Made by a program: the position numbers and the translations under genes. Shown here piece after piece: positions 4,491 through 11,323 of a DNA stretch of 64,000 bases. Each line of letters begins with the position of its first letter. The stretch's first letter is position 1. Location of the stretch: positions 3,472,001 to 3,536,000 of the forward strand of contig NZ_JARRAG010000002.1 of assembly GCF_029589435.1 (NCBI RefSeq), given 5' to 3'. The DNA comes from Paludisphaera mucosa. GTDB taxonomy: Bacteria; Planctomycetota; Planctomycetia; Isosphaerales; Isosphaeraceae. The notes under the pieces are model-generated. The model was given only the letters and a program-made list of their open reading frames with translations. It was not told where the DNA came from and did no database searches.

Positions 4491-5459
4491 ATGAACGAAC
4501 CGCAGCCAACCCCGAGTCCCGCGGCCGAGACGGCGATCCACGCCCGCATCCGCCCCTTCCGTTCCCACCGCGCCCGCCGCTGGGCCCTGGCGTGCGTCAT
4601 GCTGGCGGCGGCGTGGCTGCTGATCTCGTTCGCCGTGGCGTACCGGCTCACGCAGCGGAAGCGGCCGCCGTTCCCCGAGCCCGCGCCGGCGGTCTCGTGG
4701 GGGACGCTGGAAGGCCTCCGACTCACGACCGACGACGGCCAGCAGATCGGCGGCTGGTTCGCCGAGGGCCGCGCCGACGCCCCGGCGGTCCTCTTCCTGC
4801 ACGGCAACAAGGGGAGCCGCGGCCACTGCCTGGAACGCGCGGGGATCGTCGCAGCGGAGGCCGGCTGCGCCGTGATGCTGATCTCGATGCGTGCCCACGG
4901 CGACTCCACGGGCGACTTCAACGACATCGGCTACAGCGCCCGCCATGACGTCGTCGCCGCCGTCGAGTTCCTCCTCGCCCGGCGTCCGGGCCGGCCGATC
5001 GTCCTCTTCGGGGTGTCGCTGGGCTCGGCCGCGGCGGCCTTCGCGGCGGCCGAGCTTGGGGAGAAGGTCGACGGCTATGTCCTGGAGAGCCCGTACCAGG
5101 ACCTCAAGACGGCCGTCTGGAACCGGACGAGCACGTACCTGCCGCCGGGGCTCGACGCGATCGCCTATGTCGGCCTCCGCCTCGCCGGCCTCGTGCTGCT
5201 GCCGAACATCGACGCGATCTCGCCCCTGCGCGCGGTCGGGGCGATCCCCGAGGACGTCCCGGTCCTGATCCTGGCCGGCGACGCCGACGAGATGGCCACC
5301 CCCGAGGAGGCGAGGGCCCTGTTCGAGAGGGTTCGGAGCCACGCGCGGCTGGAATCCTTCCCCGGCGCGACCCATTACAACCTCGCCACGGTCGAGCCGG
5401 ACCGCTACAAGCGGACGATCGTCGGTTTCGTCGCCCAGGCTCGTCGCGATCGCCGCTGA
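4491..5459 (+). CDS. Membrane-anchored alpha/beta hydrolase, copy 1
   Basis: A 322-residue protein with one N-terminal membrane segment at about residues 35-55, followed by an alpha/beta-hydrolase fold. The oxyanion strand [11 protein letters not shown] and the nucleophile elbow GVSLGS (Gly-x-Ser-x-Gly) are clear. A late Asp in LAGDADEM and a His in GATHYN complete a plausible Ser-Asp-His triad. The likely role is a membrane-tethered esterase, thioesterase or lipase-like enzyme of the BEM46/ABHD type; the substrate is unknown. The next gene is a close tandem duplicate 93 bases downstream, sharing most motifs. Confidence 0.8.
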
Positions 5460-5552: not shown

Positions 5553-6515
5553 ATGGAAGACGCCGAGCCGATCCCGAGTCACGCCGCGACGCCCGCGTCG
5601 CCGCCCCGACGTCGCCCGACGTACCGGCGCGTCCGTCGCGGCCTGGTCGCCTTCGCCGTGCTCCTCGCGGCCTGGATGGCGATCTCGTTCTGCGTCGCCT
5701 CTCGCCTCACGCGGCGGATGCAGCCGGCGATCCCCGAGACCGCGCCCGAGGTCGCCTGGGGTCCGATGGAACAGCACCGCCTCCTCGCGAGCGACGGCCT
5801 GCGGATCGGGGCCTGGTACGCCGAGGGCCGCGCCGAAGCCCCGGCGCTCCTCTTCCTGCACGGCAGCGGCGCGAGCCGCGCGCAGTGCCTGGGGAGGGCG
5901 GCGCTCCTCAGGCCCGAGATCGGATGCGCCTTGATGTTCATCACGCTCCGGGCGCACGGCGACTCGGACGGCGACTACGACGACATCGGCTACGGCGCCC
6001 GTCGCGACGTCGTCGCCGCGGTCGACTTCCTCGGGGCTCGGAGGCCCGGACGCCCGATCTTCGTCGTAGGGGCCTCGCTCGGCTCGGCCGCGGCGACGTT
6101 CGCGGCCGCGGAGCTGGGCGAAAAGGTCGACGGCTACGTCCTGGAGAGCCCCTATCGCGACCTCAAGACGGCCGTCTGGAACCGCACCCAGGTGCTGCCG
6201 GCGCCCCTGGATCGGGCCGCGTACCTGGGACTTCGCCTGGCCGCGTTCGTCCTTTTGCCCCACCTGGACGCGATCTCGCCCGTCCGCGCGATCGCGGGCG
6301 TGCCCGACGACGTCCCGGTGCTGATCCTGGCGGGAGGTTCCGACGATCTGGCGACGGTCGCCGAAGCCGAGGCGATCCACGAGCGCGTGCGGACGCACGG
6401 ACGGCTCGAGGTCTTCCCGGGCGCAAGGCACAACGAACTCGCCGTCGTCGACCCGGATCGGTACACGCGGACGATCGTCGCATTCGTCGCGGGGGCCTGC
6501 CGCGATCGACGATGA
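5553..6515 (+). CDS. Membrane-anchored alpha/beta hydrolase, copy 2
   Basis: A 320-residue paralogue of the preceding hydrolase, with the same order: N-terminal membrane segment (about residues 32-52), oxyanion strand LFLHGSGASRA, nucleophile elbow GASLGS, an Asp in LAGGSDDL and a His in GARHNE. Long blocks such as the one around [15 protein letters not shown] are shared with copy 1, so the pair arose by tandem duplication and then diverged. Sequence upstream gives no strong ribosome-binding site, but the start aligns with that of copy 1. It may be co-transcribed with copy 1. Substrate unknown. Confidence 0.8.
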   Translation: MEDAEPIPSHAATPASPPRRRPTYRRVRRGLVAFAVLLAAWMAISFCVASRLTRRMQPAIPETAPEVAWGPMEQHRLLASDGLRIGAWYAEGRAEAPALLFLHGSGASRAQCLGRAALLRPEIGCALMFITLRAHGDSDGDYDDIGYGARRDVVAAVDFLGARRPGRPIFVVGASLGSAAATFAAAELGEKVDGYVLESPYRDLKTAVWNRTQVLPAPLDRAAYLGLRLAAFVLLPHLDAISPVRAIAGVPDDVPVLILAGGSDDLATVAEAEAIHERVRTHGRLEVFPGARHNELAVVDPDRYTRTIVAFVAGACRDRR

Positions 6516-6647
6516 TCCCTTTACAAGCTTCTCCCCCCTGCCCCACAATACGGTCTTGAACGACGCCCGCCCGGCCGACGCGGCCCCCGCCGCGCGCCGA
6601 GGCGTCGGGTACTTCCCCCCCTCACGCAAGCCGAGTCTGGATCCATC

Positions 6648-7460
6648 ATGAGTGGCACGCAAGCCGCGTCGGACGCGTCGAAGCAGAAGTTCGACAACAA
6701 CGGCCAGTACAGCCGTGACTCGATCCTCCGCTACGAGAAGATCTTCGGCGACAACTACATCAGCACCGGCGGCGCCGAGACGACCGACAACCTGACCGGC
6801 CGGCTGAAGGGCTTCCTCAAGCCCGGCGTCCGCGTGATCGACGTGGGCAGCGGCATCGGCGGGGCGGCGTTCCACCTGGTGGAGAAGTACGACGCCAAGG
6901 TCGTCGGCATCGACCTGGCCGAGGAGATGATCGCCGTCGGCCACGACCGCGCCAAGGCCGCCGGCATGGCCGACAAGGTCGAGTTCATCCTCGGCGACGT
7001 CCTCAAGACCGACTTCCCCGAGAAGTTCGACCTGGTCTGGAGCCGCGACGCCTTCATGCACATCCCCGACAAGGCCGGGCTGTTCGCCAAGCTCTACAGC
7101 CTGCTCGCCCCCGGCGGCAAGATCATCATCACCGACTACGCCCGCGGCAAGACGCCGGGCTCGCCCGAGTTCGAGGCCTACATCAAGAAGACCGGCTACA
7201 GCGTGATCGAGCCCGAGCAGTACGGCGAGGTCCTGGAAGGGGCCGGGTTCACCGACGTCGTCGTCGACGACGCGACCGACACCTTCGTGGACATCCTCAA
7301 GCGCGAGGAGAAGCGGCTGGTCGACGAGCGCCAGACCTTCCTCGGCCACTTCTCCGAGGAAGACCTGAACTACCTGGTCGACCGCTGGAACATGAAGATC
7401 GGATTCTGCAAGGCCGGCGACATGAAGTGGGGCATCTACCTCGGCACGCGCCCCGCCTGA
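6648..7460 (+). CDS. Phosphoethanolamine N-methyltransferase-like enzyme
   Basis: A 270-residue class I SAM methyltransferase that resembles the malarial and plant phosphoethanolamine methyltransferases over its whole length. These enzymes convert phosphoethanolamine to phosphocholine with three SAM molecules. The SAM motif VIDVGSGIGG starts near residue 63. The N-terminal lid reads NGQY then YEKIFGDNYISTGG, as in PfPMT. The catalytic dyad of PfPMT, Tyr19 and His132, corresponds to Tyr21 and His138 here (the latter in SRDAFMH). Length also matches (PfPMT is 266 residues). It is followed by a permease and a phosphatidylcholine synthase on the same strand, which supports a role in choline-lipid synthesis. 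A different small amine substrate is possible; activity is inferred. Confidence 0.82.
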   Translation: MSGTQAASDASKQKFDNNGQYSRDSILRYEKIFGDNYISTGGAETTDNLTGRLKGFLKPGVRVIDVGSGIGGAAFHLVEKYDAKVVGIDLAEEMIAVGHDRAKAAGMADKVEFILGDVLKTDFPEKFDLVWSRDAFMHIPDKAGLFAKLYSLLAPGGKIIITDYARGKTPGSPEFEAYIKKTGYSVIEPEQYGEVLEGAGFTDVVVDDATDTFVDILKREEKRLVDERQTFLGHFSEEDLNYLVDRWNMKIGFCKAGDMKWGIYLGTRPA

Positions 7461-7559
7461 TTCGTCATGGAGCATACGAGGCCGGTCTCACGCCGCTCCC
7501 GTCGCGCGACGGGGGCGGTCGCGTGCGCGGGAGTCGGCGGATCGGGAGGTCGAGCGGGC

Positions 7560-9143
7560 ATGCCGGCTAGCGCGAGCGACGACGTCCGAGACCTGGCGGC
7601 GTTCGGGTACAAGCAGGAGCTGGACCGCTCCCTCGGCAGCTTCTCGTCGTTCGCGGCCGGCTTCTCTTATATCTCGATCCTCACCGGCGTGTTCCAGATG
7701 TTCTACCTGGGGTACGCCGCGGGGGGCCCCGCGTTCTTCTGGACCTGGCCGACGGTCTTCCTCGGCCAGTTCACGATCGCCCTCTGCTTCGCCGAGCTGG
7801 CCTCGGCGTACCCGCTCTCGGGCGGCGTCTACCAGTGGTCGAAGCAGATCGGCACGCCGCTGGTGGGCTGGCTGACCGGCTGGGTCTACCTCGCCTGCTC
7901 GATCCTCACGCTGGCGGCCGTCGCCCTGGCTCTCCAGAACACGATGCCGCAGATCTCGGCCTGGTTCCAGTGGTTCGGCGACGGCTCGACGCCCGTCGAC
8001 CAGGCCAAGAACGCGGTCCTGCTGGGCTGCACGCTGATCGCCCTGACGACGATCATCAACGCCGTCGGCGTGCGGCTGATGGCCCTGATCAACAACGTGG
8101 GCGTCTGCGCCGAGCTGGGGGGCGTGGTCCTGCTGATCGTCCTGCTGGGGATCCACGCCTGCCGCGGCCCCGCGATCCTGATCGAGACGCAGGGCCGCGG
8201 CGCCGGCGAGCCGGGCGGCTACTTCGGGGCCTTCCTGGCGGCGGCGGTGATGGCGTCGTACGTCCTCTACGGCTTCGACACCGCGGGGACCCTCGCCGAG
8301 GAGACGGCCGATCCCCGCCGCCGCGCGCCGAAGGCGATCCTACGCGCCCTGGCGGCGGCCGGCCTGGTCGGCGGGCTGCTCATCATCGTCGGCCTGCTCG
8401 CGACGCCGGACCCGGCCGACCCGGCGCTCGGCCAGGTGTCGGGCGGGCTGCCCCTGATCGTCAAGACGGTCCTGGGGTCGAAGCTGGGGACCGTCTTCCT
8501 GATCGAGGTCGTCTTCGCGGTGGCCGTCTGCGCCCTGGCCGTCCACACCGGGACGGTGCGGCTGATGTTCGCGATGGCCCGCGACAACAGCCTGCCGTTC
8601 GCCGAGTCGCTGGCCCGCGTGACCGGCGAGACCCGCACGCCGATCGCGCCCGCGATCGTCACGGGGCTGCTGGCCTCCGCGATCCTGCTGGTGAACGTCA
8701 ACGCCCCCCGGATCATCGAGACGCTCTGCTCGGTCGCCCTCGTCTGGGCGAACCTGGCCTACCTGATGGTCACCACGCCGCTCCTTCTGGGCCGCCTCCG
8801 CGAGCGTTTCGGCGAGGTCGACGAGGACGACGACCCAACTCCGACCGGCGAGCGGTTCAGCCTGGGCCGTTGGGGCCTGCCGGTGAACCTCGCGGCGACG
8901 GCCTGGGGCGTGTTCGTCGTCCTCAACATGAGCTGGCCGCGGGCCGAGGTCTACGGCGAGGATCCGGTCGGCCGCTACGCCGCCCTGATCGCGACCGCCG
9001 GGCTGATGGCCGTGGGAGCGGGATATTACCTGGCGGTCGGCCGGCTCCGGGCGGGCGTCCTGCCGGAGCACGCGGCCGACGAACTGGACTTCGACGACTC
9101 GCCGGGATTGATCGTCCAGCTCGCGCCCGGGGAATCGTCGTAG
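7560..9143 (+). CDS. APC-superfamily amino acid/choline-type permease
   Basis: A 527-residue integral membrane protein with about 12 hydrophobic helices and a short cytoplasmic N-terminus. The first helix region (SFSSFAAGFSYISI) and ELASAYPLSGGVYQWS are typical of the amino acid/choline transporter branch of the APC superfamily, which includes GABA, polyamine and fungal choline permeases. I chose the ATG at 7560 because GGGAGGT lies about ten bases upstream; the earlier ATG at 7467 would add an Arg-rich, non-conserved leader. It sits 99 bases after the methyltransferase and 10 bases before the phosphatidylcholine synthase, so import of choline, ethanolamine or a related amine is a reasonable guess. 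Substrate is not shown by sequence alone. Confidence 0.82.
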   Translation: MPASASDDVRDLAAFGYKQELDRSLGSFSSFAAGFSYISILTGVFQMFYLGYAAGGPAFFWTWPTVFLGQFTIALCFAELASAYPLSGGVYQWSKQIGTPLVGWLTGWVYLACSILTLAAVALALQNTMPQISAWFQWFGDGSTPVDQAKNAVLLGCTLIALTTIINAVGVRLMALINNVGVCAELGGVVLLIVLLGIHACRGPAILIETQGRGAGEPGGYFGAFLAAAVMASYVLYGFDTAGTLAEETADPRRRAPKAILRALAAAGLVGGLLIIVGLLATPDPADPALGQVSGGLPLIVKTVLGSKLGTVFLIEVVFAVAVCALAVHTGTVRLMFAMARDNSLPFAESLARVTGETRTPIAPAIVTGLLASAILLVNVNAPRIIETLCSVALVWANLAYLMVTTPLLLGRLRERFGEVDEDDDPTPTGERFSLGRWGLPVNLAATAWGVFVVLNMSWPRAEVYGEDPVGRYAALIATAGLMAVGAGYYLAVGRLRAGVLPEHAADELDFDDSPGLIVQLAPGESS

Positions 9144-9153
9144 CCTCGAAGGG

Positions 9154-9963
9154 ATGCCGAAGATGGTCGAGACGCTGGAATCGCCGCCCGCCGCCGCCGT
9201 CCGCCCGGGCCCGATCCGCCGGTTCCTGGGCTGGTGCGTCCACGCCTATACCGCTTCGGGGCTGGCGATCGCCGCGGTGATCCTGGCGCTGCTGGTCGAG
9301 GGCGGACCGGACGCCTTCCGCTGGTCGTTCCTGCTGATGCTGGTCGCGGTGCTCGTCGACGCCTCCGACGGCACGTTCGCCCGCGCGGTGCGGATCAAGG
9401 AGGCCGTCCCCAGCTTCGACGGCCGCCGGCTCGACGACATCACCGACTTCCTGACCTACACGTTCCTGCCGCTGATGCTCGTCTGGCGCGCCGGGCTGAT
9501 CCCGCCCGGGACCGAGGCCTGGCTGATCGCCCCGCTGCTGGCGAGCGCGTACGGCTTCTGCCAGGTCGACGTGAAGACGCCCGACGGCTACTTCCTGGGC
9601 TTCCCGTCGCTCTGGAACGTCGTCGCGTTCTACCTGTACGTGCTGCCGATCCCGCAGGCCGCGGCCCTGGGGATCCTGCTCTTCCTGGCCATCCTGACGT
9701 TCGTGCCCGTGAAGCACCTGTACCCGTCGCAGCCGGGGCCGCTGAACCGGTTCGCGACGATCACGGGGATCGTCTGGGGCGTGCTGATGGTCTGGCTGCT
9801 CTGGATCCTGCCCACCTCGGCCAGCCCGGAGTTCTCGACCGCGACGCGGGCGCTGGCGTACGTCTCGCTGATCTACCCGGCGTTCTACATGGCGGCGTCG
9901 TGGTACGTCACGCTCCAGGGCTGGCTGCGACCGCGACCGCCGGCCCCGTCGCCGTCTCCCTAA
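9154..9963 (+). CDS. pcs: Phosphatidylcholine synthase
   Basis: A 269-residue CDP-alcohol phosphatidyltransferase with about eight membrane helices. The signature is D-G-x2-A-R, then 12 residues, then G-x3-D-x3-D, starting at Asp72. The 12-residue spacer, rather than the usual eight, is the mark of bacterial Pcs, which joins choline to CDP-diacylglycerol. Other Pcs-like stretches include VHAYTASG near the N-terminus, SLWNVVAFYLYVL and ILTFVPVKHLYP. It starts 10 bases after the permease stop. Together with the methyltransferase this suggests a phosphatidylcholine cluster. Pcs needs free choline, whereas the methyltransferase would give phosphocholine, so a phosphatase elsewhere would be required. 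The last 56 bases overlap the convergent MFS gene. Confidence 0.83.
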   Translation: MPKMVETLESPPAAAVRPGPIRRFLGWCVHAYTASGLAIAAVILALLVEGGPDAFRWSFLLMLVAVLVDASDGTFARAVRIKEAVPSFDGRRLDDITDFLTYTFLPLMLVWRAGLIPPGTEAWLIAPLLASAYGFCQVDVKTPDGYFLGFPSLWNVVAFYLYVLPIPQAAALGILLFLAILTFVPVKHLYPSQPGPLNRFATITGIVWGVLMVWLLWILPTSASPEFSTATRALAYVSLIYPAFYMAASWYVTLQGWLRPRPPAPSPSP

Positions 9964-11323
9964 GCTCCCAATCGCGGGCCTGCTTCTGGCCCTCGTCGAC
10001 GTCGACCATGGCCAGCAGGAAGCCGCCCACGAGGAAGAAGCCGATCACGCCCAGGATGGCCCCCCGGCTCGACCCCGAGGCGAAGTTGATGATGGCGAAC
10101 ATCGCCGGCCCCATGATCCCGGCGAACTTCTCGACGACCGCGAAGAAGCCGAAGAACTCGCCCGACTTCGACCGCGGGATCATGCTCGCGAAGAGCGACC
10201 GGGAGAGCGCCTGCGTGCCCCCCTGCACGACGCCGACGAGCACGGCCAGGATCAGGAAGTCCCGGCTGGTCTTCATCGAGTAGCCGATCACGCAGATGAC
10301 CGTGTAGACCGCCAGGCCCAGGAGGATCGACCGCTTCACCCCGATCCTGCCGGCGAACGCGCCGAAGAGGAACGAGCAGGGGATGCCGACGAACTGGACC
10401 AGCATGATCGACGCGATCATCACGGTCCGGTCAATCCGCAGCTCCTCGCCGTAGATCGTGGCCATGCGGATGATGGTGCCGATCCCGTCGTTGTAGATCA
10501 GGAAGGCCACGAGCATCAGCAAGCCCTGACGGAAGCGGCGGATGTCGCGGGCCGTCTCGCCGAGGCGGCCGAGAGTGGCCCGCACCGGGTTCAAATGCGA
10601 CCAGCGCTCGCCGCCGAAGGTGGGGGGCTCGGGGACGCGGCGAAAGAGCGGGATCGAGAAGACGAACCACCAGACCGCGACCGAGACGAACGCCAGCCGG
10701 GTCGGGAGCGTCGCCTGGGCCTCGGAGAGCCCCTCGCCCGAGGGGAGGCCGAACCAGCTCGGCTTCGTGATCCAGGCCAGGTTCAGTCCCAGCAGCAGGC
10801 CGCCGCCGATGTACCCCAGCGCGTAGCCGGACGTCGAGACCCGGTCGATCTCGTCGTCGCTTGCGATGTGAGGCAGCAGCGCGTCGTAGAAGACGAAGCT
10901 GGCGTTCGCGCCGATGTTCGCCAGGATGAAGAGGATCGAGGCCAGGATCCAGTCGCCCGTGTGGATGAAGTACATCGCGGCCGTCGCGAGCAGGCCGAGC
11001 CCCAGGAAGAGGCCGAGCAGCGGCTTCTTCCGCGCCGTGTGGTCGGCGTAGGCGCCCAGCAGGGGCGACATCAGGGCGACGATCACCATCCCGAGCGTCG
11101 TGACCGCGGCCAGGCGCCCCGAGGCGACCTTGGGCTCCTCGCCCGCGCACGCGACCTGGGAATAGTAGATGGGGAAGACGGCCGTGATGATGACGCACAT
11201 CATCGCCGAATTGGCCCAATCATACATCGCCCAGGCGCGAAGCTCGGGCCGGTCCAGGCCGAGCCGTCTCAGCAGGCCCGGCCCGATCGATCCGCCCCGG
11301 GTCGCGTGGTCAACCTCGGCCAT
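9908..11323 (-). CDS. Atg22/UMF1-like MFS transporter
   Basis: A 471-residue major facilitator protein with about 12 membrane helices. The N-terminal RAWAMYDWANSAM segment followed by VFPIYYSQV is the hallmark of the UMF1 (Atg22-like) family, whose yeast member exports amino acids from the vacuole; bacterial substrates are mostly unknown. The loop GAYADHTARKK is the usual MFS loop 2-3 motif. Its 3' end overlaps the end of pcs by 56 bases in the opposite direction, so the two transcripts can pair at their tails. An efflux adaptor gene starts divergently upstream. Substrate not assigned. Confidence 0.85.
   Translation of the reverse strand: MAEVDHATRGGSIGPGLLRRLGLDRPELRAWAMYDWANSAMMCVIITAVFPIYYSQVACAGEEPKVASGRLAAVTTLGMVIVALMSPLLGAYADHTARKKPLLGLFLGLGLLATAAMYFIHTGDWILASILFILANIGANASFVFYDALLPHIASDDEIDRVSTSGYALGYIGGGLLLGLNLAWITKPSWFGLPSGEGLSEAQATLPTRLAFVSVAVWWFVFSIPLFRRVPEPPTFGGERWSHLNPVRATLGRLGETARDIRRFRQGLLMLVAFLIYNDGIGTIIRMATIYGEELRIDRTVMIASIMLVQFVGIPCSFLFGAFAGRIGVKRSILLGLAVYTVICVIGYSMKTSRDFLILAVLVGVVQGGTQALSRSLFASMIPRSKSGEFFGFFAVVEKFAGIMGPAMFAIINFASGSSRGAILGVIGFFLVGGFLLAMVDVDEGQKQARDWELRETATGPAVAVAASPGA

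Follow-up and report, generated by a model that had tools for sequence, protein, structure and literature searches.

A phosphoethanolamine methyltransferase homologue paired with a Pcs-type synthase suggests a further bacterial route to phosphatidylcholine in Paludisphaera mucosa and its relatives

Known phosphoethanolamine methyltransferases (PMTs) form phosphocholine, while the bacterial synthase Pcs uses choline. The Plasmodium parasite, source of the single-domain enzyme PfPMT, uses the cytidine diphosphate (CDP)-choline route to phosphatidylcholine (PC). The stretch of DNA analysed here, hereafter the window, comprises 64,000 nucleotides from the planctomycete Paludisphaera mucosa (contig NZ_JARRAG010000002.1, positions 3,472,001 to 3,536,000; genome size, 8.2 Mb), and in it the genomic partner of a PMT homologue is a Pcs-type CDP-alcohol transferase. 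This pairing, which recurs in many relatives within the Isosphaeraceae, suggests a bacterial route to PC that needs no imported choline.

Passages of PMC10434233 describe bacterial PC as arising by lipid methylation, by Pcs acting on outside choline, or by acylation from glycerophosphocholine or lysophosphatidylcholine, and an excerpt of PMC12139422 names the Pcs and lipid-methylation routes. The bacterial enzyme PmtA likewise supports S-adenosylmethionine (SAM)-dependent formation of PC without outside choline (PMC10434233, same passages), but it methylates the intact lipid, whereas the enzyme encoded here matches phosphobase methyltransferases. In the Isosphaeraceae, PC appears in an excerpt of PMC7828035 as a figure-legend abbreviation concerning two Singulisphaera species, and a passage of PMC10817699 reports it in a Gemmata, which belongs to another planctomycete family. 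A search of the open-access literature, which leaves most subscription journals outside its scope, found no description of a PMT, from a planctomycete or any other bacterium, linked to Pcs.

The methyltransferase and its phosphate site

The methyltransferase of the window is a PMT homologue by both sequence and fold, with phosphoethanolamine as its predicted substrate. In a sequence search of the PDB, 11 distinct PMT sequences rank above all other proteins (E 5.7e-75 to 4e-42), led by the second domain of AtPMT2 at 5.7e-75 and followed by MitM at 1e-21. A structure model built from 16 members of the 25-sequence family described below (mean predicted local distance difference test score, pLDDT, 90.6) retrieves PMT chains at ranks 1-21 of a fold search. 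The sequence-only reading of this DNA had likened the protein to the malarial and plant enzymes, and that placement stands; membership in an unrelated family of SAM methyltransferases is ruled out by the two rankings. The closest relatives of known structure, by sequence as well as by fold, are the second domains of Arabidopsis PMT1 and PMT2, with about 43% (42-44%) identity over aligned residues, followed by PfPMT (36.5%) and nematode PMT-2 (31-34%). The plant enzymes differ in possessing two domains; PfPMT, with 266 residues in its PDB chain, resembles the window protein in its single domain, its fold, its Tyr-His dyad and most of its phosphobase residues. The window gene is 92% identical to the copy in Paludisphaera soli.

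The proposed dyad, Tyr21 and His138, aligns with Tyr19 and His132 of PfPMT and is invariant in all 25 bacterial family proteins. The residues of the PfPMT phosphobase site are named in a passage of PMC6705855, which describes Arg179 as electrostatic. Five of the positions, Tyr27, Tyr160, Tyr175, Tyr181 and Lys247, are kept in 25/25 bacterial proteins and in 6/6 eukaryotic chains, and the equivalent of Asp128 is likewise kept in all 25 bacterial PMTs. The likeness to PfPMT claimed earlier thus holds for the dyad and for most of the phosphobase residues, but two substitutions that bear on the substrate had been missed. At the position of PfPMT Arg179, which is Arg in the six eukaryotic chains, Arabidopsis PMTs included, the window protein has Thr182, and Thr is found in every bacterial family member. 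Conversely, the position of PfPMT Gly243, a glycine in all six eukaryotic chains, is occupied by Arg246 in the window protein and by Arg in 25/25 of its family. These two positions are among only four alignment columns that are fixed within the bacterial and the eukaryotic groups yet differ between them. Arg246 lies four residues ahead of Lys250, the counterpart of PfPMT Lys247, and both residues fall on a predicted helix spanning 237-255; because they are one helix turn apart, they should face the same side. From this helix geometry we infer that the phosphate-binding arginine has been relocated rather than lost, Arg246 taking the place of Arg179.

In a tree computed without distant sequences, the 25 bacterial PMTs separate from the six eukaryotic ones with support of 100/99; the tree is unrooted, and the direction of descent or transfer cannot be read from it. 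Adding six distant methyltransferases from the window genome as a root introduced very long branches that split up the 25 bacterial rows, making that root unusable.

The Pcs-type synthase, the permease and their linkage to the methyltransferase

The third gene of the set (Table 1) encodes a protein whose best family matches are the models of bacterial Pcs. Five NCBIfam Pcs models match it at 99-155 bits, as compared with only 23 bits for PssA; the curated cutoffs of these models are 300-440, and three relatives score similarly low (101-143 bits). These models seem to describe equivalogs of particular lineages, and because the cutoffs are not reached, the protein is labelled Pcs-type rather than certified Pcs. 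The CDP-alcohol motif DG-x2-AR-x12-G-x3-D-x3-D is present in 29 of the 30 family proteins, that of the window among them, and the 12-residue spacer that had been noted in it, which we take to be a hallmark of Pcs, is indeed there, as compared with 8 residues in two other CDP-alcohol transferases of this genome. The genome encodes four such transferases, and the fourth does not match the motif pattern. The exceptional family member (G017, locus L074; G and L numbers denote genomes and loci of our collection) has W for the first motif glycine and comes from an incomplete genome without a PMT match. A structure model built from 18 of 30 sequences (pLDDT 84.8) has its closest fold match in phosphatidylserine synthase, the sole solved entry matching below E 0.001, and a profile search of the PDB gave no match at E 0.1. 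The activity predicted from these features is condensation of choline with CDP-diacylglycerol.

Between the two enzyme genes lies a permease of the amino acid-polyamine-organocation (APC) superfamily (PF13520, 2e-47; TIGR00907, 3e-51; TIGR03428, 511 bits, under its cutoff of 740), for which choline or ethanolamine is a putative cargo. Alignment with homologues begins only at about residue 27-38 of the ORF, which makes position 7560 its probable true start and leaves about 100 bp after the PMT stop codon; the gap between the permease stop codon and the start of Pcs is 10 bp. Open reading frames (ORFs) and family matches agree on the three-gene, one-strand set reported by the sequence-only reading, and the expectation that other Isosphaeraceae would carry it was borne out as well.

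Table 1. Genes at and around the locus, numbered by position in the window
Feature	Positions	Strand	Basis
Tandem alpha/beta hydrolases, upstream of PMT	4491-5459 and 5553-6515		63% mutual identity
PMT homologue, single domain like PfPMT	6648-7460	+	270-residue ORF; PDB sequence search and fold search
APC-family amino acid/choline-type permease	ORF 7467-9143 (558 residues), probable start 7560	+	PF13520, TIGR00907
Pcs-type CDP-alcohol transferase	9154-9963	+	269 residues; NCBIfam Pcs models, CDP-alcohol motif
ATG22-like major facilitator superfamily (MFS) transporter, convergent, overlapping the 3′ end of the Pcs gene	9908-11323	-	PF11700, 8e-63

Across 45 Isosphaeraceae genomes, searched at thresholds of E 1e-40 or better for PMT, 1e-20 for Pcs and 1e-60 for the permease, matches were found in 25, 30 and 26 genomes, respectively. 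Pcs occurs in every one of the 25 PMT genomes as compared with 5 of the 20 without a PMT match (G016, G017, G039, G040 and G041, among which G016 is 83% and G017 89% complete); counted by genus, it is present in 12/12 genera with PMT and in 1/9 of the others. The Fisher p of the association is 4.5e-8 with genomes as units and 4.4e-5 with genera, values that ignore kinship. In 18 of the 25 PMT genomes, PMT and Pcs sit side by side on one strand, with the permease intervening in 16 and nothing in 2, and this proximity exceeds chance. All 26 permease genomes carry Pcs, including G039-G041, in which no PMT is matched at the threshold used. Pcs without a permease match is found in G005, G011 and G012, which are PMT-positive and 99% complete, and in G016, which lacks a PMT match.

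Beyond the family, a sample of 392 Planctomycetota genomes, scored with six candidates per genome in the listed part and perhaps holding other Isosphaeraceae, yielded PMT at 1e-40 in two genomes among the matches listed, both of them Isosphaeraceae. A search of genome contigs returned four loci from planctomycetes and two weak matches to Prevotella. No PMT relative was found in plasmid records at E 1e-25; at 1e-10, 65 plasmid records gave partial matches, none spanning 80% of the protein and with 30-37% identity among the matches listed. Phages (1e-10) and viral contigs gave no PMT relatives.

Several features flank the set. Relatives of the ATG22-like transporter accompany Pcs in 16 of the 30 genomes that carry it, though contig ends truncate some of the loci, and this transporter probably lies outside the PC route. 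Relatives of the tandem alpha/beta hydrolases stand at the PMT locus in 5/6 genomes of the window genus. A promoter-like site at 6520-6549 (0.2 expected by chance) and a terminator-like site within the permease gene (1.0 expected) were also noted, and nothing is concluded from either.

Phosphoethanolamine supply and the phosphatase step

Some neighbours of PMT that the sequence-only reading could not have foreseen are visible only in relatives. In five genomes (G002, G011, G026, G037 and G038), a relative of choline/ethanolamine kinases (PF01633) is encoded immediately upstream of PMT, in the same orientation and at a distance of 188-308 bp, the G037 copy being placed by its 91% identity to that of G038. 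Anywhere in the genome, a kinase relative (E 1e-8) is found in 17/25 PMT genomes as compared with 1/20 others, the latter being G017, from a genus that otherwise bears PMT; two different queries returned the identical 18 genomes. The G032 copy is split in two pieces. The seven kinase proteins scanned, namely the PMT neighbours in G002, G011, G026 and G038, one from the window genome and two more, pass the PF01633 cutoff (63-99 bits, as compared with 29). Their best NCBIfam match is GntI, below its cutoff, and the kinase substrate is therefore putative.

In G043 and G044, which belong to one genus and have no kinase match, a CobD-like gene diverges from PMT at a distance of 419-428 bp. The best solved match of its product is the L-threonine-O-3-phosphate decarboxylase 1lc5 (E 8e-36); unlike CobD proper, it falls under the TIGR01140 cutoff (229-235 bits, as compared with 290.55) and is encoded beside PMT. 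Acting on phosphoserine, such a protein would yield phosphoethanolamine. A CobD relative, SMUL_1544, reportedly makes ethanolamine phosphate. In the literature, SMUL_1544 is labelled a "threonine phosphate decarboxylase-like enzyme," and norcobamides are said to have an ethanolamine linker. The two genomes of another PMT-bearing genus, G037 (L096) and G038 (L097), also encode CobD-like proteins, at sites away from PMT and with 72-73% identity to the PMT-neighbouring protein. Either the kinase relative or the CobD-like decarboxylase could be a source of phosphoethanolamine; six PMT genomes (G003, G012, G021, G022, G023 and G030) lack both a kinase match and a PMT-adjacent CobD-like gene.

Between phosphocholine and Pcs, a phosphatase is needed, and this gap, recognised in the sequence-only reading, still stands. 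The PHOSPHO1-type phosphatase was rejected as the missing step: PF06888 is matched in 5/45 genomes, none of them PMT-positive. These haloacid dehalogenase (HAD) phosphatase matches (L155-L159) come from genomes of which three have Pcs and the permease, and 2/5 exceed the family cutoff. In G005, whose PMT and Pcs genes adjoin with no permease between them, the gene divergent from PMT (L059:8520-10337) encodes a member of the sulfatase family PF00884 that also matches the phosphodiesterase family PF01663, more weakly. As a first guess, the step may fall to an unspecific phosphatase.

Other choline-lipid genes were surveyed as well. The phosphatidylethanolamine methyltransferase (PEMT) family PF04191 (E 1e-5) has no match in the window genome and is matched in 30/45 family genomes; the family is unspecific, being matched also in 5/14 controls, including Bacillus subtilis and Lactococcus lactis. 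One further CDP-alcohol transferase (G000:C2:70195-71262, L142) carries an N-terminal extension of ~150 residues without a Pfam match. A CDP-choline route through this transferase was set aside, as the protein is found in 38/45 genomes whatever their PMT status; the linkage comparison covered this transferase, the two others being encoded at G000:C1:66407 and G000:C1:777355.

The proposed route and its rivals

Taken together, a home-made supply of choline for PC is the reading that we favour and consider fairly probable. In this route, a choline/ethanolamine-kinase relative would convert ethanolamine to phosphoethanolamine; in one genus, the CobD-like decarboxylase may instead make phosphoethanolamine from phosphoserine. 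PMT would then carry out three SAM-dependent methylations, from phosphoethanolamine to phosphocholine, from which a phosphatase of unassigned kind would free choline, and Pcs would join the choline to CDP-diacylglycerol, yielding PC and CMP, so that flux would run from phosphoethanolamine toward the lipid. The permease may import choline or ethanolamine when available, salvage and synthesis converging at Pcs. The combination of soluble phosphobase methylation with Pcs, as envisaged by the sequence-only reading, thus gains from family membership, linkage and co-occurrence, and is held back by the phosphatase gap and the altered phosphate site.

A number of observations weigh against this route. 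The electrostatic phosphobase residue Arg179 of PfPMT is gone in 25/25 bacterial proteins, every NCBIfam Pcs model scores under its curated cutoff, and PMT is not beside Pcs in 7/25 PMT genomes. Among the selected neighbours scanned against Pfam, no dedicated phosphatase lies beside the PMT or Pcs genes, and at E 0.001 PF06888 is matched in 0/25 PMT genomes. With respect to supply, 8/25 PMT genomes have no kinase match, the kinase stands beside PMT in 0/6 genomes of the window genus, and the sole kinase match of the window genome (PF01633, 4e-28) is far from PMT and 32% identical to the PMT-linked type; in addition, G043 and G044 are 81% and 74% complete, so that their absent kinase may reflect an assembly gap. 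The Isosphaeraceae are, moreover, non-independent samples. Finally, PC itself does not require PMT, because a Gemmata is reported to contain PC while the sampled Planctomycetota outside Isosphaeraceae gave no PMT.

Several of these observations could instead be accommodated if PMT methylated free ethanolamine, or another amino alcohol, straight to choline for Pcs, rendering a phosphatase unnecessary. The loss of Arg179 in 25/25 family proteins, the lack of an obvious phosphatase among the neighbours examined and of PF06888 in PMT genomes, and the choline/ethanolamine-type permease between PMT and Pcs in 16/25 genomes all point in this direction, and were there no phosphatase at all, direct methylation would become the better reading. 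Yet Tyr160, Tyr175, Tyr181 and Lys247 are invariant, a new invariant arginine (Arg246) has appeared by Lys250, as if the phosphate site had been rebuilt, and a PMT-adjacent kinase in five genomes makes little sense for a free ethanolamine substrate. As matters stand, direct methylation seems rather unlikely. A more specific version, in which enzymes that lost Arg179 and gained Arg246 constitute a bacterial class accepting free ethanolamine and deliver choline to Pcs in a single-enzyme process, with neither a phosphorylated intermediate nor import, strikes us as unlikely.

It could also be that the phosphocholine made by PMT serves CDP-choline formation, glycan decoration or glycine betaine, that Pcs uses imported choline, and that the genes are close merely through shared choline metabolism. 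The permease and Pcs do remain paired in genomes that carry PMT at another site (G018, G019, G037, G038, G043 and G044) or have no PMT match (G017, G039, G040 and G041), and thus make up a unit of their own. This explanation is nevertheless quite improbable in our estimation, given that PMT and Pcs are both present in G005, G011 and G012, where no permease is matched, and that the N-terminally extended CDP-alcohol transferase, one of four, is present in 38/45 genomes regardless of PMT. Least probable is methylation of a phosphodiester such as glycerophosphoethanolamine, from which a glycerophosphodiesterase would then free choline for Pcs: Thr in place of Arg179 might fit a bulkier, singly charged phosphodiester, but the kinase and the CobD-like neighbours both point to phosphoethanolamine.

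The favoured route from phosphoethanolamine would accordingly join a known enzyme family, altered at its substrate site, to Pcs in an unexpected bacterial combination whose chemistry is predicted, and it differs from the described Pcs pathway in that a putative choline-forming enzyme is linked to the synthase. The arginine change sets the bacterial enzymes apart from the eukaryotic ones by a clean difference that can be tested, and it has a bearing on the relationship between the two groups. If the proposal is correct, soluble phosphobase methylation together with Pcs would constitute a further bacterial route to PC, one that frees Pcs from its dependence on outside choline.

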